Below are positions 9,853 through 64,000 of a stretch of DNA of 64,000 bases, piece after piece. Each line of letters starts with the position of its first letter. The first letter of the stretch is position 1. Both the position numbers and the translations under genes were made by a program. The notes beneath the pieces were generated by a model. That model had not been told where the DNA came from, made no database searches, and saw only the letters and a list, made by a program, of their open reading frames with translations. Origin of the DNA: Fonticella tunisiensis (GTDB lineage: Bacteria > Bacillota > Clostridia > Clostridiales > Caloramatoraceae); NCBI RefSeq assembly GCF_004364155.1, contig NZ_SOAZ01000012.1:1-64000 (forward strand), read 5' to 3'.

Positions 9853-10050
9853 CCAAATGAGATAGCACAACTCAATAAACCGGGACGTTTATTGAGACAG
9901 TCCTACAGCTCTTAACTGTAGGCCCAGCAAGTAATACTGAGGATATTACAAGCTTCGGCGATATTTCCTTCTCCCCAGGCTCATTGCTCCCTCACGCTCC
10001 ACCAGGGACTGTTAAATACCGCGCCTCTACCTCACTTGTAAAAGTGAGGT
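9853..10050 (-). ncRNA. lysine riboswitch (L box)
   Basis: On the minus strand the conserved L-box pieces occur in order: GAGGTAGAGGCGCG, ttaACAGTC, GGGGAGAAGGAAATATCGCC, GAAGCTT, TGCTGGGCC, GGACTGTCTC and a loop hairpin over AATAAACG/CGGTTTATT. Helix P1 joins GTGAGGTAG with CTATCTCAT. Its 3' strand can alternatively pair with 9760-9771, which would break the terminator at 9725-9760. High lysine is therefore expected to shut off the ABC operon. Confidence 0.9.
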
Positions 10051-48232: not shown

Positions 48233-48617
48233 ACTAAAATTTATCATAATAAATGTAATTTATAGAAACTTAGTGAATAATTGATAAATGCTATCATTCT
48301 AAAGATAATTATAATTGATAACTTTAATCAATACAAGCATTTTTGTGAAAAAATTATTTATGTCTAAAACACTGCCCCGTCCTAAAGGAGTGCAAGTCTT
48401 TTATACAGTTTTTAATGTATGTTGCTTATTCTATATAAAAATTTTTTGTAAGTGCAACTGATTCTTCTTTAATAATTTTGTTCCAATCGTTCCGAACTAT
48501 GTTAAACCTCTGTCAAAGCATAGAGCATAAGGAAATTCTTTTGATGGGCATTTATTAGATGTTTATTCAAAATCTATCTATTATTAAAATAATATTGTAT
48601 AATAATGTTATAATAAA

Positions 48618-48672
48618 TAAAGAGGTGATGGAGTTCACCTTTAATTGCCATTGTGCTGATGGCTCCTGCTTT
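48618..48672 (+). ncRNA. fluoride riboswitch (crcB motif)
   Basis: The signature pieces are in order: GAGGTGATGGAGTTCACCT (stem with GATGG and GTTC), TTAATTGCC and GCTGATGGCTCCTGC. The 3' part overlaps the following terminator, so fluoride binding can release transcription. It stands 50 bp before the fluoride-channel gene. Confidence 0.88.
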
Positions 48673-48695
48673 ATATCATAAAGTAGGAGTTTTAT
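48663..48695 (+). terminator. riboswitch-controlled terminator
   Basis: CTCCTGCTTTAT pairs with ATAAAGTAGGAG and is followed by TTTTATTTT. The 5' arm is shared with the fluoride aptamer. Confidence 0.8.
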
Positions 48696-53371: not shown

Positions 53372-53488
53372 GCATGTGAATTCTCTCTCATCTGTCAGCA
53401 TATGCTGCTGGAATTAGCACCTTGCAATAGATTGCTGGTTGCCGGGCTTCATCGGGCCAGTCCCTCCGCCTCTCTTGATAAGAGTTCC
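53372..53488 (-). ncRNA. SAM-I riboswitch (S box)
   Basis: The minus strand carries the S-box core in order: CTTATCAAGAGAGGCGGAGG, GACTGGCCCGATGAAGCCCG, GCAACC, AAGGTGCTAATTCCAGCAG and ACAGATGAGAG, whose end closes helix P1. SAM binding is expected to favour the terminator and switch metQ off. Confidence 0.93.
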
Positions 53489-54441: not shown

Positions 54442-54522
54442 CCAATTTTCCCTTTAATTAATAACTTGATTTTAATTTAAGTTATGTTAAAATTTAACTA
54501 AAAGAATGAATTGAATAAATTA

Positions 54523-54622
54523 CCGGCACTAGGGGAGCTGGAATTGGCCAGCTGAGATAAGGATTCCGGAAAAACCTTGACCCTTGTACCTGATCTGGAT
54601 AATGCCAGCGTAGGGAAGTGCT
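54523..54622 (+). ncRNA. TPP riboswitch (THI box)
   Basis: The core motifs are present: GCACTAGGGGAG, GCTGAGATAAGGA, GACCCTTGTACCTGATCTGG, ATAATGCCAGCGTAGGGAAG. The AGATAAGGA segment is complementary to TCCTTATCT (54662-54670) inside the terminator's 5' half and loop, giving an alternative pairing that would open transcription without TPP. Confidence 0.93.
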
Positions 54623-54653
54623 ATTTATATGCATTTTAATTTGTATATTTAAT

Positions 54654-54715: not shown

Positions 54716-55207
54716 TTGAATACAAGAAAACTTACTTTTTCAGCAATGCTAATCGCAACAGGTACAATCCTTGGTAATATAATTTACATACCTGTTGGAG
54801 CATCAAAATGCTTCCCGGTCCAGCATGCCATCAACGTTATTTCAGCAGTTTTGCTAGGCCCCTGGTATGCCCTTTCAAACGCTTTTTTAATTTCACTTCT
54901 CAGGAACATCCTTGGTACAGGCTCTCTTTTAGCATTTCCAGGCAGCATGATAGGAGCATTTCTTGCAGGCGTTGTATTTAAAAGAACAGGGAGCAAGCTT
55001 TTTGCCTCTATTGGAGAAGTATTTGGAACGGGTATACTGGGAGGAATTGCTGCATATCCCGTTGCAAAGTTTGTAGTGGGAAAGGATGCAGCGGTGCTTT
55101 TCTATGTAGTTCCCTTCCTTATAAGTACCATAGGAGGAAGCATTATAGGATACGTTCTTGTTAGCATATTTGAAAAAAATGAAATGTTAAAAAAACTAAC
55201 AGCATAG
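54716..55207 (+). CDS. thiW: ThiW, thiazole-precursor ECF transporter S component
   Basis: The 163-residue membrane protein has about five helices and the ThiW pattern LIATGTILGNIIYIPVGASKCFPVQHAINVI. ThiW is thought to capture the thiamine thiazole moiety for the ECF importer. The TTG start follows GGGAGGTATAGATC. It is the first gene after the TPP riboswitch and precedes thiD by 11 bp. Confidence 0.9.
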   Translation: MNTRKLTFSAMLIATGTILGNIIYIPVGASKCFPVQHAINVISAVLLGPWYALSNAFLISLLRNILGTGSLLAFPGSMIGAFLAGVVFKRTGSKLFASIGEVFGTGILGGIAAYPVAKFVVGKDAAVLFYVVPFLISTIGGSIIGYVLVSIFEKNEMLKKLTA

Positions 55208-55218
55208 GAGGTAAAAAT

Positions 55219-56025
55219 ATGAAGAAAGTACTTACAATTGCAGGTTCAGACAGCAGCGGTGGTGCAGGAATTCAGGCGGATTTAAAGACCTTTTCTGCCC
55301 ACGGAGTTTTTGGAATGAGCGTAATTACAGCAGTAACAGCTCAAAACACACAGGGTGTCTTTGCTGTTCAGGATATATCAAAGGATATTATTGCAAAACA
55401 GATAGAGGTAATTTTTGAGGATATAGATGTTGACGCAGTAAAGATCGGAATGGTATCTCAAATAGATACTATAAATACCATTGCAGAGGAGCTAAAAAAA
55501 TACAATGCTAAAAATATTGTACTTGACCCTGTTATGATATCCAAAAGCGGGTTTGACCTTTTAAGGCCCGAGGCAAAGGATGCCCTTATTAAAAACCTTC
55601 TGCCAATAGCAACGATAATTACGCCAAATATACATGAGGCAAGAGCAATTACCGGTATGGAAATTAAAAATATAAATGACATGGAAATGGCAGCAAAAGC
55701 CATATTCGAAATGGGTCCAAAGAACGTCCTTGTAAAGGGAGGGCATCTTGAGGAGGATGCAACTGATGTTCTCTTTGACGGATATGAAATAAATCACTTT
55801 AAGTCCCATAGAATTAATACAAAAAATACACATGGAACGGGATGCACCCTCTCTTCTGCCATTGCTTCGAATTTAGCCCTTGGCTACTCAATATTTGAGG
55901 CAGTTGAAAGGGCCAAGGAATACATTACAGTTGCAATTGAACACTCCCTGTCCATTGGAAAGGGTGTTGGTCCAACAAACCATTTCTATACACTATACAA
56001 GAAAGCAGGTGTTTTAAATGAATAA
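55219..56025 (+). CDS. thiD: hydroxymethylpyrimidine (phosphate) kinase ThiD
   Basis: The 268-residue ribokinase-fold enzyme phosphorylates HMP and HMP-P. It shows TIAGSDSSGGAGIQADLKTF at the N-terminus, DAVKIGMVSQ, VLDPVMISKSGFDLL, ITPNIHEARAITG and the anion hole/catalytic KNTHGTGCTLSSAIA with the Asp-equivalent region. GGAGG precedes the ATG. It overlaps the next gene by 8 bp. Confidence 0.94.
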   Translation: MKKVLTIAGSDSSGGAGIQADLKTFSAHGVFGMSVITAVTAQNTQGVFAVQDISKDIIAKQIEVIFEDIDVDAVKIGMVSQIDTINTIAEELKKYNAKNIVLDPVMISKSGFDLLRPEAKDALIKNLLPIATIITPNIHEARAITGMEIKNINDMEMAAKAIFEMGPKNVLVKGGHLEEDATDVLFDGYEINHFKSHRINTKNTHGTGCTLSSAIASNLALGYSIFEAVERAKEYITVAIEHSLSIGKGVGPTNHFYTLYKKAGVLNE

Positions 56026-57256
56026 CGAAACAAAAAACAACTTAACAGCATTTAATTTTCTATTTTTATGGTTTGGTGCTGCAATATCAATTGCAGAGAT
56101 AATGACAGGAAGTCTCATAGCACCCCTTGGCTTTAAAACAGGATTTTTAGTTATTTTGCTTGGACATGCCATAGGAACTGCAATACTGGTTTTAGGTGGA
56201 GTTATCGGAACAGAGGAAAGAATCCCGGCAATCATGTCCACAAGAATATCCTTTGGATCATATGGTTCCTATTTATTTTCGATTTTAAACGTTCTTCAGC
56301 TCATTGGATGGACGGCAGTTATGATCATATCCGGAGGGCGTTCGATAAACATAATAAGCAAAACGCTGTGGTCATTTGACAGCATTAACTTCTGGTCCAT
56401 CGTTATAGGACTTCTTGTTTGCCTTTGGATTGTATCTGGAAGTGCAGGCTTTAAGAAGATAAATACTGCGGCTGTTTTTCTCCTGCTTATTTTAACCATT
56501 GTTTTAAGCTTTATAGTCTTTAAAAATGGAGAACTCTTTACAAAGCAGGCTACAGGAAACATGAGCTTTGGAGGGGCTTTAGAATTAAATATAGTTATGC
56601 CTCTATCCTGGCTTCCCTTGATTGCCGACTACACAAGGTTTGCTAAAAGCAAAAAAGGGGCAGTATCAGGAAGTTTTATAGGATACTTTGTTGCAAGCTC
56701 CTGGATGTACCTTGTTGGGCTTGGCGCTGCAATACTCTTTGAAAACCCTGACGTTGGAGCTATAATGACTGCTGCCAACCTGGGATTTGCAGCCCTTGGA
56801 ATAATCGTTCTGGCAACAGTTACAACTACCTTTATGGATGTCTACTCAGCAGGGGTAACCTTCTTAAACATAATGCCAAATTTAAATGAAAAAACAGTTT
56901 CTGTTATTATGGGAGTTATAGGTACTATAGTTGCAATTGTTGTACCTATTGAACAGTATGAGAGCTTCCTATATGCAATAGGATCGGTGTTTGCTCCTCT
57001 GTTTGCAATACTCTTTACTGACTACTTCATAATTAAAAAGCGCACAAGGATTCAGGATAACCTTATAATCGATTGGGGAGCCATGATCGTGTGGATCATT
57101 GGAGTTGTTCTATACTATATACTTATTAAATTCGATTTCATTTTGGGCTCAACCGTCCCTGTAATGATATTAACTTCGTTGATTTATATTTTATCCTGGA
57201 GGTGGATTGAAAATTGGAAATACTTAAGGAAATCTCAAAACTCCTATCAGGGGTAA
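56018..57256 (+). CDS. cytX: CytX-type hydroxymethylpyrimidine transporter (NCS1 family)
   Basis: The 412-residue transporter has about twelve helices and the NCS1 pattern: FNFLFLWFGAAISIAEIMTG, GHAIGTAILVLGGVIGTEER, MPLSWLPLIADYTRF and ITDYF-like LFTDYFIIKKR. CytX proteins of thi operons import HMP or a precursor. Its start overlaps thiD and its end overlaps the thiM start, showing tight coupling. Confidence 0.9.
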   Translation: MNNETKNNLTAFNFLFLWFGAAISIAEIMTGSLIAPLGFKTGFLVILLGHAIGTAILVLGGVIGTEERIPAIMSTRISFGSYGSYLFSILNVLQLIGWTAVMIISGGRSINIISKTLWSFDSINFWSIVIGLLVCLWIVSGSAGFKKINTAAVFLLLILTIVLSFIVFKNGELFTKQATGNMSFGGALELNIVMPLSWLPLIADYTRFAKSKKGAVSGSFIGYFVASSWMYLVGLGAAILFENPDVGAIMTAANLGFAALGIIVLATVTTTFMDVYSAGVTFLNIMPNLNEKTVSVIMGVIGTIVAIVVPIEQYESFLYAIGSVFAPLFAILFTDYFIIKKRTRIQDNLIIDWGAMIVWIIGVVLYYILIKFDFILGSTVPVMILTSLIYILSWRWIENWKYLRKSQNSYQG

Positions 57257-58032
57257 GGGAAAAAAAACCCCTCATCCATAACATCACAAACTATGTTACA
57301 GTAAACGACTGTGCAAATATAATATTAGCCCTCGGCGGTTCCCCTGTTATGGCCGACGATATAGATGAAGTTGAAGAAATGACTTCAATTGCATCATCCC
57401 TTGTTATAAACATCGGTACCCTAAATTCAAGAACCATTGAACCCATGATACGTGCAGGCAAAAAGGCAAATGAAGCAGGAATACCTGTAATTTTTGACCC
57501 GGTTGGAATTGGGGCCACAACACTAAGGACTAAAACTGCTGAGAGGCTTATAAATGAAGTTAAGTTCTCGGTAATAAGAGGGAACATGTCTGAGATTAAA
57601 ATATTGGCAGGCATTGACGCCAGAATAAAGGGAGTGGATTCAACGGAGGGCACCCACGGAGGTGAAGAAATAGCCCTAAGCCTTGCAATGCGCCTGGGAA
57701 GCGTTATTGCAATTACAGGTGCAAAGGACATCATATCAGATGGAAAAAGGCTGTGCACAATAGAAAACGGGCACAAAATGCTTTCAATGGTTACAGGAAC
57801 AGGCTGCATGAGTACATGCCTTATTGGAACCTATTCAGGAGTAACAAATGATTACTACCTAAGTGCAGCAGCAGGCATTTTAACAATGGGTCTTGCAGGG
57901 GAAAAGGCATATAAGAGCCTTAGGAAAGGGGAAGGAACAGGAACCTTTAGAATGAGGCTGTTTGATAGCATATACAACCTGTCTGAAGGGGACATTATGG
58001 AAGGTGGAAGAGTATATGAAAAACAAGATTGA
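57214..58032 (+). CDS. thiM: hydroxyethylthiazole kinase ThiM
   Basis: The 272-residue kinase phosphorylates the thiazole alcohol. Motifs include [49 protein letters not shown] and the catalytic [12 protein letters not shown] (Cys in the anion hole). The TTG start follows GGAGGTGGATTGAAAA, inside the end of cytX (43-bp overlap). Confidence 0.93.
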
Positions 58033-58654
58033 TGTTAACTACAGCCTTTATCTTGTCACTGACAGGGGAATATTAAATGGAAGGGATCTTAAAGAGGCCG
58101 TGGAGGAGGCTATATTAGGAGGCGTAACCCTCGTACAGCTTAGGGAAAAGGCAGCTTCAACCCTTGAATTTTATAACACAGCATTGAGGGTAAAGGCTGT
58201 AACAGATAAATATAACATCCCCCTTATAATAAATGACAGGCTCGACATCGCCCTTGCTGTTGATGCGGCAGGGCTTCATGTGGGACAGGATGATATGCCT
58301 GCCCACATAGCAAGAAAAATACTGGGACCTGATAGGATACTTGGAGTATCCACAGCAAATTTAAAAGAAGCACTAAAGGCACAGGAGGACGGCGCTGACT
58401 ATATAGGAGTTGGAGCCATGTTTCCAACAATCAGCAAAAGCGACACAAGGGACGTTACCCTTGATGAGCTTAAAAGGATTAAGGAAAGTATAAAAATACC
58501 CGTTGTTGCAATAGGCGGGATAAACCAAAACAACGTAAAACAGATTATTGAGTTAGGCGCAGACGGAGCAGCAGTCATCTCTGCAATACTCGGCAGAAAG
58601 GATATTAAGCAGGCTGCCCTCGAGCTTAAGAAAAAGCTCAACGGAGACAGTTGA
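58016..58654 (+). CDS. thiE: thiamine-phosphate synthase ThiE
   Basis: The 212-residue TIM-barrel enzyme joins HMP-PP and thiazole phosphate. It carries [70 protein letters not shown] and [12 protein letters not shown]. The ATG at 58016 follows GGAAGGTGG; the frame start at 57962 has no site. It ends an operon that can salvage HMP and thiazole but has no thiC/thiG here. Confidence 0.94.
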
Positions 58655-58875: not shown

Positions 58876-61800
58876 TTATTCAGCCTTTCTTTTACGAACT
58901 ACCATAAATACCCCTGCACCTAAAGCAAGAATGCCCAGTGTTATAAGAAGGTTTCTATCAACGGGTGACCCTGTCTTGGGAATAACCTTTGAACCATCTG
59001 AACTTATTGGTGTATCTATTCCGCCAGAATTTCCTGGTTGCTCTATATTCCCTGGTGTAGTTGTTTCATTAGCTTTTACAACGATTTTACATTCTGCACT
59101 ATAGCTTCCGTCCTCAGTGGTTACAGTTATTGTTGCCTTTCCTTCCTTTAATGCCGTTACCTTTCCATTGTTATCTACCCTGGCCACAGCTTCGTTGTCA
59201 GACTTCCAGCTAACATTCTTGTTTGTTGCATTATCAGGAGTTATTGATGCCTTAAGGTTTAATGTATCTCCAACCTTAAGCTCGGCATTCGTTTTATCAA
59301 GGCTTATTCCTGTTACTAACACAGCTGAATTTACCAGAACAATCTCTGAAGTGTTTCTAACCCTTATTCTGTGCCCCTCCGGATCCTCTGATGCAAGACC
59401 AACTGCACTTACAACATCACCCACCTTAATTCTTCTATCCCATTTACCGAGCATGTCAGGATTGTCTGTATCATCTCCAATATATCCATTTACATATATT
59501 CTTGCTTCTCCACTGCCATCATCAAGGAATAGTGAGTTCTCTGTCATTTTTGTTACCTTACCTTCAACCTTAACAAGCCATCCTTCATTTTCCTCAAGCA
59601 TACTCTCGTAGGTTTTCATTACCCTTGGTTCAACAAGCTCTATGTTGCTGCCCAATATTTCAATGTCATAGTTTTCATTTGAAAGCTGAAGCTCAGCATC
59701 CCCATCATACTGGTCAACCTTTCCTATTACCCTAACCTTTGAACCAAGCGGAAGGGACTTGTTTGAAACACCAAACACTGTAATTCCACCAGTTTCGTCC
59801 TGAACATAGAATACGTCAAAGAAGGCTGTATTTTTAACTGCTGCCTTTGAAGCTGCCGTGACTCTTCCTTCAACCATGAACTTCTTTCCAAGGTTATCTA
59901 AAATTCCATCCCTGTCTTTATCTTCCCTAACCTGTGCGATAGTTGAAAGCTTAGGCCTTGTCATCCAGCCAAGTATGTTTTGTGTTATCTGCCTGTTTGC
60001 ATATTCGTTATCTCCTGTAGTTTCAAAGTCTGAGAAGAAGGTTGTTCCTGCAACTATTAGCTTACCTCCTCCAGGAAGAACTTCTGCTGCAAGGGAGTAA
60101 ACGTTACCCTTCTCAACCGGAGCTGCATCATTTTGAAGGTCGGAATCTAATGTTTCTGTTGTTTCGTGGCCCTTTATAAGCCAATCAACAGCCGAATCAC
60201 TTCCACCATCTTTAAGTATCACAGAGCATCCGCTGTATGCACTGTAGGTAAGCCCCTCTGGAATGTTGTTCGTGAGTCCATATTTTGTTGATACATAATC
60301 ATCAAAATATAGTCTATATTCCTGTCCCCCATTTGAAGTTTTATCTATGACCTCATCATCGTTAAACCTCAGGTTAGAGCCTATAGCTTCAAGAATTCTG
60401 TTGCCCTGATTTGAGTTCTCATAGGCTTTTTCGGTTACACCTTTATCATTGTAATCTGCCCTTGATGTTATGATAAGTGAACCGCCATTAGTCACGAAGT
60501 TCTTTATTACATCTATCTCTGCATCTGTAAAGTTTGACCTAAAGAGATTATATCTTGAATCATCCTTACTTTGAGGGTCTGTTATTATAAGAATCCTTGC
60601 ATCCCGCAAATCCTCTTGTGTTAAGGCGTCCTTATTCTCATAAAACAGGAACTTTCTATCTGAAAGTATTCCCTTAAGGGCAGTTATTTTGTTTGAATAG
60701 TCTCCGCTAACATACTGATTATAGTGTCCCGCATCTACTACAACCTTTACTATGTCATCCTTATTGGCAACCTCAACCTTTGTACTTGCTGTAAATGCTC
60801 TGTCCTCTCCATTTATGTTAAGGGTCGTGGCTGCATATATGATGTAGCTGCCTGCCTTATCAGGCGTCCAGTTAATTAATGTGTCGGCTGTTCCTCTAAT
60901 TGGTATTTCTGAAATTGTTTTTTCCTCTATTTTGTTTTCTGGTTTTATTTCGTTTACGAAGAATTCAACCTTTACATCCTTTAGGGCCTCATCGCCATTA
61001 TTAAAAAGTGTTGCCTTTAAATCCACCGGGTTATTGGTAATATAGATATTTTGGGAAGCCTCAACCTTTGATATTCCTGCTGATATATTGGCCCCTGTCC
61101 AAACCGGTGCTGTAACTGCAATATCTTTATCTTCCTGATCAACTCTTACATAATAGTATGAGTATTGTGGACTTAAGGTTAAACTCCAATCCGCAGTATT
61201 TGAATCAAAATTCTTAGATGCCGCAACAACTCCACCGTTGGTTATTATTGAAACCTTGCCTATTTTATCGGATATATCAGGGTCCTGAATACTTATATTT
61301 ATATCAAGGGATGATGGATTTGAAAGGAAGGAGCCCATCACCTTGTCATTAGCCTTAAACATTATCCTGAGGTTCTCATCTTCAGTTGCGTATACCCTCA
61401 TCTTTCTTAATGCATCATATACGTACTCCCTTGAAAGTGCCGGTGCTAAAACCACTGTCCTTGCAGTATTTGCAGTTACCCAATTGGCCTTATGGTTGTC
61501 CTGGTTATTTGTTGGAGCCACGTGCCACCCCTTATCAAGTGCCCTGGTATAATATTCATAGCTTGGAAAGTATCCTGAGCCCCTAACCGGACCCTCACCG
61601 TTTCCCACTTCTATAAGATTTACTACACTGTCAACCTGAGGGTCATAATATCCAAAGTCGCCAAAGTCCCCGAATGTGGTTCCCGGATGGTTGAACTGGG
61701 ATATGGACATAGGATATTTCTTTATTTCATTGTAGTACATTGGAAGGTCAACCGATTTACCATCTATCTTGCTGTTTCTTGAAAGAAATCCTGGAGTATT

Positions 61801-64000
61801 AAAGGTATTTATGTGTCCCCAACCTCCTGTGCTTCCGCTCCAGGTCATTTCAAATCCTGCAATGGCTGCAAACTTACCATCTTCATTGTACTTATCTGCA
61901 ATTTCATGGAGTTTCTTCCACTCGTTGCTTGCAGAACCATCGGCAAGGGTTGCACTTGTATCATTGTCAAGGGAATTTGAGTGGTCAGTTACTGCGAAGA
62001 AATCGGCCTTTGCAGTATTTTTCGCCCAGTCATAGGCCTCCTCAGGGGTTCCCTGTCCATCAGAGTAGTTTGTATGGCTGTGGAGCTGTCCAAAGTATAT
62101 GTTATACTCTTCCTTACCAACATAAAAGTTCCATTCCATTATGCCGGTGTTTGGAACAGGTGCCTTGTCCCTTAATTCAAGCTTAACATAGTGGATCCCC
62201 TTTGAAAGGTCCTGCTCCGGTGTGTAGGATATTCCATCCTCTGTAATAACTGCCTTATCTGTAACATCGGTATTATCCAGGTACAACCTTGCTGAGCCTG
62301 TATCAATTCCAGACCCTGTATCTTTGTATTTAGCGCTTATAACAGGCCTTAAATTTTCCCCTGTAAATTCACCACTTCCGGGTGTCATATCAGAGATTTC
62401 AGGGCCTAAAAGGTCTGAATCGGTAATATTTACTTTATATGGAGAGTTTTTATCCTCCGGGGATGTTACTGTATTTGTTCCGTCTGTAGCTTCAATATAA
62501 TATTCAAGCCCTGTAGTGCTTAGATCCTCCCTTGGAATCGATGCTGAATAGTTGCCATTTAAAAGTTCCATTTCCATAGACTTATAGGTTGTTTGTCCAA
62601 TTGCTCTGTAGTAAAGCTTAACTGCCGCAACCCTTTTATTGTCCGTAACCTTTGCGGTTATATCAAGGTTTGCAGATGTACTCCCTTCAGTAACGGGATC
62701 GTGTGTTATAGCAGGAGGTGTTGTATCCTCTCCTACTGTTCCACCCTCAAAGCCGTCCATAGTATGTATACCCAGGTCATCAAAATAATTTATATTCTTA
62801 ATATCCCACTCCTTTGACGGATCGAAGGCATCGCTTGAATTGCTATCACCTTTTGTAACCGTGCTTTTTCTAATGAGTGTATGGTCGACTGTTGCACCGC
62901 TTCCCCATGATGTACCGGGGTCAAAACCTACCTGGCCGAAGGAATCTATAACTACTCCATCGTGCTCAAGGGTTAAGGCATCATCACCATTAAAGTTTGC
63001 AACTCCTGAGATTATATCGGCTCTACTCTTTATTGCATCAGCTGCACTGCTGTTTGCAATTACATATACATCCCCATTTGCCAATGTTCCTGCGAGATTT
63101 AAAGTATTGCCTGGTGTTGTAGAACCATTTGAGTAAAGCTTTAGAGTATACTTTGACAGATCTACATCTTTACCGGTTCCATTGAATATCTCAATTGCCT
63201 TGTTGTTGCTGCTACCCTCAATGTACTCCGATATGAAAAGGTCGTCAGCAAACACACCCTGATGTAGAACAATGTCTGAGGTATTTCTAACCCTTAGCTG
63301 ATAATCCTTATATTGCGAAACTATTGCCGTTACATCTACCTTGTCCCCTTCCTTAATATCCATTAAAGAAGGTATTTTATAGATATTAATCGTTCCAGTG
63401 TCATCGGTAAGGGTCGTATTTCCTGTTGTGTTTATAGCCCCAAGGATTGCTCCCTTAATCTTTACGAGCTGGCCTTCATAGGCTTCCCCTATTTGGCTTA
63501 TTTTTACAACCTTTGGCTGTGGGAGTGCATTATTGCTGCTTTCAGCAGTAACGTCTGAATTTGACGCAGGCTTTATTTCAAGCAGACCATTGTATATTGC
63601 AAGGGGACCCTTTACAACTATCTGGTCTCCAACCTTTAAATCAAGCCCATATTTATACACATTAATTCCTGCAGCATCGTCCTGTATATAGTAGTTGCTC
63701 CCATCTACCCAGGTTACTATTCCTCTGACCGCTACAATTGTGTTCTCAGGCTTCTGCCTGGCTTCAGCTATAGAAAGAATACTTGCCGGCTTAACTGTAA
63801 CTTCACAGGTATCCCTATATCCTCCATCCTCTGTTATTGCAGCAATTATGGCCTTTCCTTCCTTTATGCCCTTAACTACTCCGCCATTTACCTGTGCAAC
63901 GGTTTCATCGCTCGATGACCAGATTATATTTTTGTTTGTTGCATCCTGAGGCTGAACCCATGCTTCAAGGGTTATTGCGTTTCCAACCTCAACCTCTGCA
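58876..64000 (-). CDS. giant sortase-anchored surface protein with PHP-type phosphoesterase domain (5' end outside window)
   Basis: The minus-strand frame is open to the right edge, so about 1,700 C-terminal residues are seen. In order: a BIG2 Ig-like domain (about 64000-63790), two OB-fold modules (63780-63250), a lamin-tail-like domain (FISEYIEGSSNNKAIEIFNG, 63250-62850), Ig-like segments, a CehA-type PHP domain (FGQLHSHTNYSDG, FFAVTDHSNSLD, SQFNHPGTTFGD, TNNQDNHKA; 62100-61390), a CARDB-like domain, a DUF4350-like region (VVVDAGHYNQYVSGD), two more OB modules (59890-59330), a second BIG2 (59330-59070) and a sorting signal VIPKTGSPVDR plus helix plus RKRKAE. The metal-binding His/Asp residues of the PHP part look intact, so a wall-bound nuclease or phosphoesterase is likely. 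IPKTG departs from LPXTG at the first residue. Confidence 0.85.
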   Translation of the reverse strand, partial: AEVEVGNAITLEAWVQPQDATNKNIIWSSSDETVAQVNGGVVKGIKEGKAIIAAITEDGGYRDTCEVTVKPASILSIAEARQKPENTIVAVRGIVTWVDGSNYYIQDDAAGINVYKYGLDLKVGDQIVVKGPLAIYNGLLEIKPASNSDVTAESSNNALPQPKVVKISQIGEAYEGQLVKIKGAILGAINTTGNTTLTDDTGTINIYKIPSLMDIKEGDKVDVTAIVSQYKDYQLRVRNTSDIVLHQGVFADDLFISEYIEGSSNNKAIEIFNGTGKDVDLSKYTLKLYSNGSTTPGNTLNLAGTLANGDVYVIANSSAADAIKSRADIISGVANFNGDDALTLEHDGVVIDSFGQVGFDPGTSWGSGATVDHTLIRKSTVTKGDSNSSDAFDPSKEWDIKNINYFDDLGIHTMDGFEGGTVGEDTTPPAITHDPVTEGSTSANLDITAKVTDNKRVAAVKLYYRAIGQTTYKSMEMELLNGNYSASIPREDLSTTGLEYYIEATDGTNTVTSPEDKNSPYKVNITDSDLLGPEISDMTPGSGEFTGENLRPVISAKYKDTGSGIDTGSARLYLDNTDVTDKAVITEDGISYTPEQDLSKGIHYVKLELRDKAPVPNTGIMEWNFYVGKEEYNIYFGQLHSHTNYSDGQGTPEEAYDWAKNTAKADFFAVTDHSNSLDNDTSATLADGSASNEWKKLHEIADKYNEDGKFAAIAGFEMTWSGSTGGWGHINTFNTPGFLSRNSKIDGKSVDLPMYYNEIKKYPMSISQFNHPGTTFGDFGDFGYYDPQVDSVVNLIEVGNGEGPVRGSGYFPSYEYYTRALDKGWHVAPTNNQDNHKANWVTANTARTVVLAPALSREYVYDALRKMRVYATEDENLRIMFKANDKVMGSFLSNPSSLDINISIQDPDISDKIGKVSIITNGGVVAASKNFDSNTADWSLTLSPQYSYYYVRVDQEDKDIAVTAPVWTGANISAGISKVEASQNIYITNNPVDLKATLFNNGDEALKDVKVEFFVNEIKPENKIEEKTISEIPIRGTADTLINWTPDKAGSYIIYAATTLNINGEDRAFTASTKVEVANKDDIVKVVVDAGHYNQYVSGDYSNKITALKGILSDRKFLFYENKDALTQEDLRDARILIITDPQSKDDSRYNLFRSNFTDAEIDVIKNFVTNGGSLIITSRADYNDKGVTEKAYENSNQGNRILEAIGSNLRFNDDEVIDKTSNGGQEYRLYFDDYVSTKYGLTNNIPEGLTYSAYSGCSVILKDGGSDSAVDWLIKGHETTETLDSDLQNDAAPVEKGNVYSLAAEVLPGGGKLIVAGTTFFSDFETTGDNEYANRQITQNILGWMTRPKLSTIAQVREDKDRDGILDNLGKKFMVEGRVTAASKAAVKNTAFFDVFYVQDETGGITVFGVSNKSLPLGSKVRVIGKVDQYDGDAELQLSNENYDIEILGSNIELVEPRVMKTYESMLEENEGWLVKVEGKVTKMTENSLFLDDGSGEARIYVNGYIGDDTDNPDMLGKWDRRIKVGDVVSAVGLASEDPEGHRIRVRNTSEIVLVNSAVLVTGISLDKTNAELKVGDTLNLKASITPDNATNKNVSWKSDNEAVARVDNNGKVTALKEGKATITVTTEDGSYSAECKIVVKANETTTPGNIEQPGNSGGIDTPISSDGSKVIPKTGSPVDRNLLITLGILALGAGVFMVVRKRKAE

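Follow-up and report, generated by a model that had tools for sequence, protein, structure and literature searches.

At one edge of the 64,000-nucleotide stretch of Fonticella tunisiensis DNA analyzed here (the window), an open reading frame (ORF) encodes a giant protein in which a PHP catalytic domain is combined with OB folds, a lamin tail domain (LTD) and a cell-wall sorting signal, raising the question of what such an enzyme would act on at the cell surface. A preliminary description, made from the sequence alone, had read this combination as pointing to the scavenging of extracellular DNA or nucleotides, and had called for extension of the contig towards the N-terminus, since a missing secretion signal would speak against that reading. 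The ORF (58876-64000, reverse strand) is open at the window edge and ends 560 bases beyond it, at C12:64560, when the contig carrying the window (C12; 97,571 bases, from a genome of 3.1 Mb that is 99.5% complete) is read further. The complete surface PHP protein comprises 1,894 aa; residues 188-1894 are encoded in the window, and the first 187 residues, containing the signal peptide and an N-terminal module, at C12:64000-64560. Its start ATG lies 5 bases after a run of seven G that forms a ribosome-binding stretch, and its signal peptide is MKGKREKRFLSLILALTFVLSNFMMFANVKKAIA, so that the extension yields a full ORF with the secretion signal in place.

From the N-terminus, the protein is composed of the signal peptide, an unassigned module, a Big_2 domain, two OB folds, the LTD and two Ig-like modules, followed by a CehA/McbA-type PHP domain with a beta-sandwich, a CARDB domain, a GATase-like domain, two further OB folds, a second Big_2 domain and the sequence IPKTG followed by a transmembrane stretch and the tail RKRKAE. 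In window coordinates, and with the basis of each assignment, these features are:

58876..64000 (-): surface PHP protein ORF, window part (ORF reading and contig extension)
63790..64000 (-): first Big_2 domain, about residues 171-257, the first 17 residues lying outside the window (Pfam)
63265..63789 (-): OB-fold pair 1 and 2, about residues 258-432 (DUF5689/OB matches; homologous pair in EEP and 5'-nucleotidase proteins)
62929..63246 (-): lamin tail domain, residues 439-544 (PF00932, 59.2 bits)
62101..62750 (-): two Ig-like modules ahead of the catalytic domain, approximate (second, residues 735-819, modelled; first bounded by inspection)
61096..62097 (-): CehA/McbA-type PHP with C-terminal beta-sandwich, residues 822-1155 (NF038032; model; PHP fold matches)
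61492..62082 (-): candidate metal ligands H827, H829, D834, H860, E904, H916, H958, D1021 and H1023 (invariance in 38 sequences)
60838..61041 (-): CARDB, residues 1174-1241 (19.5 bits, under the Pfam cut-off of 22.7)
59947..60753 (-): GIFT domain, class I GATase-like, non-catalytic (IFT52 Z 23.2, OST48 Z 21.5; no invariant Cys/His)
59335..59892 (-): OB-fold pair 3 and 4, about residues 1557-1742 (PF01336; model; Foldseek)
59086..59316 (-): second Big_2 domain, residues 1749-1825 (Pfam)
58879..58983 (-): sorting signal IPKTG, transmembrane stretch and RKRKAE tail (Gram_pos_anchor; TIGR01167)

The Pfam scan of the query matched the two Big_2 domains (100.9 bits), the LTD (59.2 bits against a cut-off of 34.3), OB folds through PF01336 (49.0 against 27) and DUF5689 (44.8 against 28.6), and DUF3604 (30.0 against 20.4). 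The N-terminal OB pair is supported by homology and the C-terminal pair by homology and a model with a pLDDT of 92, and the four or more OB folds, two BIG2 domains and lamin-tail-like domain listed in the preliminary description are thus borne out. The same holds for its IPKTG sorting signal, which is recognized by Gram_pos_anchor by a small margin (20.3 against a cut-off of 20.0) and by TIGR01167 (18.5 against 15.9). With a signal peptide, sorting motif, transmembrane stretch and basic tail, and a sortase above the Pfam cut-off encoded elsewhere in the same genome, the protein has the full set of features of a sortase-anchored protein. The only sortase gene detected in this genome (G000:C23:17766-21064) and a tandem 5'-nucleotidase match are some 0.9 kb apart, an arrangement resembling that reported for Bacillus subtilis, where yhcR adjoins its sortase gene yhcS (PMC3222306). 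Elsewhere in the window we observed lysine (9855-10037, reverse strand), SAM (53385-53484, reverse strand), TPP (54521-54633, forward strand) and fluoride (48615-48675, forward strand) riboswitches, the TPP riboswitch lying upstream of what appears by eye to be a thiW-thiD-cytX-thiM-thiE cluster (54716-58654) convergent with the PHP gene. None of the seven plasmid records recovered covers 80% of the query.

Assignment of the catalytic domain to the CehA/McbA family, as first proposed, is upheld by NF038032, which scores 108.1 bits over residues 822-1155 against a domain cut-off of 80. A model of 438 residues built with 38 sequences reached a pLDDT of 90.7, and its best solved matches are the predicted PHP phosphoesterases 2anu (Z 19.7; rmsd 2.9 over 203 residues) and 3e38 (Z 19.2), followed by PsfC (Z 15.9), the DNA endonuclease EndoQ bound to DNA (7k30, Z 14.8), Pol III, RNase AM and 2yb1 with AMP (Z 11-12), and PolX and PolC (Z 10-11); YcdX and histidinol phosphatase are also among the fold matches. 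Multi-domain Foldseek matches in the first list for this model were chance alignments, and re-inspection gave PHP folds. EndoQ, PolX and RNase AM, which are intracellular repair or RNA enzymes, share fold and ligand motifs with the query but are distant from it, at 12-22% identity on structural alignment. The metal-site motifs (HxH, H, E, H, H, DxH) are all present, in the order reported for PolX (PMC6616362); H958 is spaced much as in PolX and H916 less so, the latter being assigned as the motif III histidine by order. Structural modelling had been suggested as a check for loss of the metal ligands; the model is confident, and all nine candidates (H827, H829, D834, H860, E904, H916, H958, D1021, H1023) are invariant in 38 of 38 homologues. 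The surface protein is thus very probably an active metallo-phosphoesterase of some kind. It could instead be a non-catalytic adhesin or DNA-binding surface protein whose PHP domain is structural, as in some replicative polymerases, and its large content of Ig, OB and LTD modules would suit that role; with nine candidate ligands invariant in homologues this diverse, however, we regard this as extremely improbable. A second CehA/McbA-type PHP protein of 461 aa, 37% identical and without an obvious signal peptide, is encoded in the same genome (L004:7704-9089, G000:C2).

The preliminary description had also noted a DUF4350-like, GATase-like region and found it odd in a surface enzyme. A GATase-like domain is indeed present, with a GIFT fold; Pfam DUF4350 itself (PF14258) gave no match in the query at E<=0.1, and IFT52_GIFT reached 22.7 bits, under its cut-off of 27.2. 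Modelled together with the OB pair that follows it (pLDDT 92.0), the region aligns with the GIFT domain of IFT52 at Z 23.2 (rmsd 2.6, 217 residues) and with OST48 at Z 21.5, both above every amidotransferase listed. Since no Cys or His occurs among the invariant or near-invariant columns of 37 sequences, amidotransferase chemistry is not expected, and the region is a GIFT-type, non-catalytic module, sharing the fold of IFT52 and OST48 but here forming part of a bacterial surface enzyme. It is not peculiar to this protein, as GIFT matches also accompany an EEP domain (L051, weakly) and a 5'-nucleotidase with a purple acid phosphatase (L182). Foldseek matches of the C-terminal OB part include CST bound to telomeric single-stranded DNA, RMI1-RMI2 and the RPA14/32 OB folds; OB and GIFT folds bind proteins and sugars as well.

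One scan of species genomes yielded 437 relatives of the PHP domain, the closest in Clostridium polynesiense (75%), and the 79 loci kept for analysis are mostly from Clostridium, Lachnospiraceae and other Clostridia. Among 26 full-length relatives picked from these loci for diversity and scanned at E<=0.01, we found PF01336 in 21, GIFT in 10, LTD in eight, DUF4350 in eight, the Gram-positive anchor in six and SLH in four. The GIFT-OB part was detected in 6 of 199 genomes of the phylum, directly preceded by a PHP domain in five, one of which (G191) has a stop within the PHP stretch. In the sixth (G254), 5'-nucleotidase and purple acid phosphatase domains take the place of PHP; these are joined with GIFT in a single 1,559-aa protein (L182:1468-6144), and a 718-aa protein with CARDB-GIFT-OB and without a PHP match (G031; L047:4873-7029) adjoins a surface alpha-amylase gene. 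Nine other genomes of the phylum carry PHP in open frames of 701-757 codons (proteins of about 690-750 aa) without a GIFT-OB match; of three that were scanned, L183 has a weak DUF4350 match. Not all relatives, then, require OB domains. One orthologue (L039) has an in-frame TGA in the GIFT region, which may reflect gene decay or an error in the assembly.

To identify the enzymes that share this architecture, query residues 255-600 (OB-OB-LTD) were searched in 147 genomes of the order at E<=1e-8. The search returned 24 ORFs in 23 genomes, comprising 13 surface PHP proteins (query included), two PHP proteins without an obvious signal peptide, four EEP nucleases, one of which (L051) carries the weak GIFT match, and five UshA-type 5'-nucleotidases; a phosphoesterase domain is thus present in 24 of 24, a tally that covers one order and modules that could have spread for anchoring reasons. 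The two PHP proteins without an obvious signal peptide (L141, L142), from two other genomes, are versions of the 461-aa paralogue that bear the OB pair at the N-terminus, so OB-PHP coupling exists in apparently non-secreted proteins too. These partner domains bear on the possibility that the enzyme is a phosphodiesterase on non-nucleotide polymers, namely teichoic acids or phosphoglycans of its own wall or of other cells. Its wall location would be consistent with such substrates, and the OST48-like GIFT fold and the Fn3_assoc/CHB_HEX modules found in some relatives would fit glycan binding; yet nine of the nine non-PHP domains exchanged onto the OB-LTD part are EEP nucleases or 5'-nucleotidases, with no teichoic-acid enzyme among them, and we consider this explanation improbable.

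Surface DNases of the SpnA kind include SWAN of Streptococcus sanguinis. This protein combines OB folds, an EEP domain and an LPKTG signal (PMC4118848), and like the query it is secreted, carries a YhcR-type OB fold and is anchored to the wall; its catalytic domain is EEP (DNase I-like), whereas that of the query is PHP. The Shewanella extracellular nuclease ExeM (NF033680) likewise shares with the query a signal peptide, an LTD and a YhcR-like OB pair; its catalysis is by EEP, and the query has PHP together with GIFT, a second OB pair, Big_2 and a sortase anchor. The ExeM model matches only the LTD region of the query, at 99.2 bits against a cut-off of 1300, so the query is not a member of that family, and no EEP family is among its matches in the Pfam and NF model scans. 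In ExeM, deletion of the YhcR-like OB region or of the EEP domain is reported to abolish nuclease activity, and deletion of the LTD to weaken it in vitro (PMC6085458). Wall anchoring is also common to the query and to YhcR and YfkN of B. subtilis, which are described as nucleotide phosphoesterases, YhcR with OB folds; YhcR has a 5'-nucleotidase domain, and the query has none by Pfam, in contrast to 8 of 79 relatives. The chassis of ExeM, SWAN and YhcR, a signal peptide with OB folds and, in ExeM, an LTD, is thus found in the query as well. To our knowledge, no activity is known for any member of the surface PHP group. Our literature search found nothing on PHP with a lamin tail domain, and the accessible portions of the literature on CehA/McbA and on PHP with LPXTG mention no surface PHP nuclease and no giant wall-anchored architecture. 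CehA/McbA, the nearest named family, is known from the same portions for carbamate hydrolysis. By family membership the surface protein is of the CehA/McbA type; it may work like a surface nuclease.

A functional link to nucleotides is suggested by the eight relatives (L075, L077, L079, L081, L083, L085, L086, L088) in which PHP and 5'-nucleotidase are joined in one chain, a fusion confirmed by Pfam for L086 and L136 (by its length the same contig as L088); all eight are from Clostridium, so they may represent one or few fusion events. In a 60-genome panel, a 5'-nucleotidase C-terminal domain is present in 14 of 14 genomes with a surface PHP protein against 28 of the 46 others, and the product of one-sided p values within two families is 0.008, a value adjusted for family alone; these and the other counts span related genomes and are not phylogenetically independent, and at least 15 of the 79 kept loci overlap with the panel, so that counts from the two sets are not independent of each other. 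A surface PHP protein and a large EEP nuclease were found together in none of the 60 genomes, with 0.7 expected by chance, a difference too small to speak for or against mutual exclusion of the two.

Among 504 adjacent ORFs from 80 loci, one family stood out: in 44 of 79 relatives (e.g. L062, L067, L109) the PHP gene has a YibE/F (PF07907) membrane gene close by, located before or after it, on the same strand in 39 cases and within 371 bases in 42. YibE/F exceeds its Pfam cut-off in 7 of the 14 PHP genomes of the 60-genome panel, with a copy beside the PHP gene in all seven, and is adjacent to PHP in two further loci from other families of the phylum (L187, L188). A further set of loci combined seven PHP loci with 35 regions surrounding YibE/F genes elsewhere, seven fragmentary or weak matches having been set aside. 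A direct neighbour matches a phosphoesterase model for 21 of 45 YibE/F ORFs, as against 3 of 309 ORFs further off in the same loci; the 21 neighbours comprise 11 purple acid phosphatases, six PHP proteins, two 5'-nucleotidases and two alkaline phosphatases. Part of this excess is built in, because some of the neighbours had themselves served to construct the models for purple acid and alkaline phosphatases; the identification of nine neighbours with Pfam is free of this circularity. A phosphoesterase neighbour accompanies 19 of the 20 YibE/F ORFs with the greatest similarity to those linked to PHP; the exception is L039, where the in-frame stop in the PHP gene puts another ORF between. Other YibE/F copies, nearly all from one genus of the panel (g16), lie beside ZnuA, TerC or CobW genes. 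Individual instances of YibE/F beside these genes or beside secreted phosphoesterases of the four kinds (PHP, purple acid phosphatase, 5'-nucleotidase, PhoA-type) are L147-L157, L167, L168, L170, L173 and L175. RNA regulators were sought near PHP or YibE/F genes in 10 loci, and the one detected, a THF riboswitch (L068), is not linked to either in any system known to us.

This context groups the PHP protein with secreted phosphoesterases. YibE/F is classified as TC 9.B.141 (PMC3924187), and two YibE/F-like genes appear in a table of Staphylococcus aureus genes associated with reduced fitness in blood (PMC13227979); the accessible literature under its names yielded no assigned function. By analogy with TerC proteins, which are reported to metalate exported enzymes (PMC10550928), YibE/F may serve secreted metallo-phosphoesterases through metal supply, or may take up their phosphate; the copies beside ZnuA, TerC and CobW genes incline us slightly towards metal supply over pure phosphate transport. 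A Pfam search found no YibE/F in the genome of the window, although it detected the family in the control genomes of Lactococcus lactis and Corynebacterium glutamicum, so this proposal is not directly applicable to the query, whose 11 neighbouring ORFs have no match among the neighbours of its 79 relatives.

The same associations help to weigh the remaining explanations. As a surface phosphatase or cyclic phosphodiesterase, the protein would act on small molecules such as mononucleotides, sugar phosphates or signalling nucleotides, its OB folds binding polymer or cell-surface material only, with no cutting of polymers. Small-substrate PHP relatives among the fold matches (2yb1, YcdX, histidinol phosphatase), monophosphatases among the YibE/F neighbours (purple acid phosphatase, PhoA) and PHP proteins without a GIFT-OB match all lend it some weight. 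Four OB folds and the fusion of OB with PHP in proteins lacking an obvious signal peptide (L141, L142) suggest a polymer substrate instead, however, and a fused 5'-nucleotidase would be redundant if the PHP domain were itself a nucleotidase, leaving this explanation unlikely, if far from negligible. Hydrolysis of carbamates or esters, as the name CehA/McbA implies and as known members of the family perform on carbamates, agrees with an NF038032 score above the cut-off; but the OB folds, the LTD, the fused 5'-nucleotidase and a YibE/F family found beside four phosphoesterase kinds are the company of a phosphoesterase, and we judge it very improbable.

We therefore favour the reading in which the main role of the wall-anchored PHP protein is the scavenging of nucleic acids by polymer cleavage, with a probability of roughly 0.6. 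The module-swap tally, the 5'-nucleotidase fusions and the gene context give independent support to the nucleic-acid or nucleotide scavenging originally proposed, in line with the secretion signal and conserved ligands, although the OB and LTD modules by themselves do not prove a nucleic-acid substrate. The secreted, sortase-anchored enzyme would act at the cell wall and degrade nucleic acid or oligonucleotides outside the cell, with the four OB folds, and perhaps the LTD, holding the polymer while the PHP metal site hydrolyses phosphodiester bonds and possibly a terminal phosphate too. GIFT and CARDB would be non-catalytic spacers or binding modules, and separate surface 5'-nucleotidases would dephosphorylate the released nucleotides for uptake. 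PHP would have replaced the EEP or 5'-nucleotidase domain on a chassis like that of ExeM, SWAN and YhcR.

A broader proposal, possible but doubtful, is that PHP-type surface nucleases are widespread in clostridia as an additional fold on the nuclease chassis, where they would act in relay with 5'-nucleotidase. Many lineages would supply them with a dedicated YibE/F membrane protein that either metalates metallo-phosphoesterases after secretion (PHP, purple acid phosphatase, 5'-nucleotidase and alkaline phosphatase alike) or imports the phosphate they all release. If true, the YibE/F family would gain a function, and its role would be testable in laboratory strains carrying YibE/F. For this large family, with 437 relatives matched in one genome scan, the annotation after carbamate-pesticide hydrolases probably conceals an enzyme with which anaerobes scavenge nucleic acids at their surface; if so, PHP would constitute an additional catalytic fold on a chassis seen here otherwise with EEP and calcineurin-type domains.
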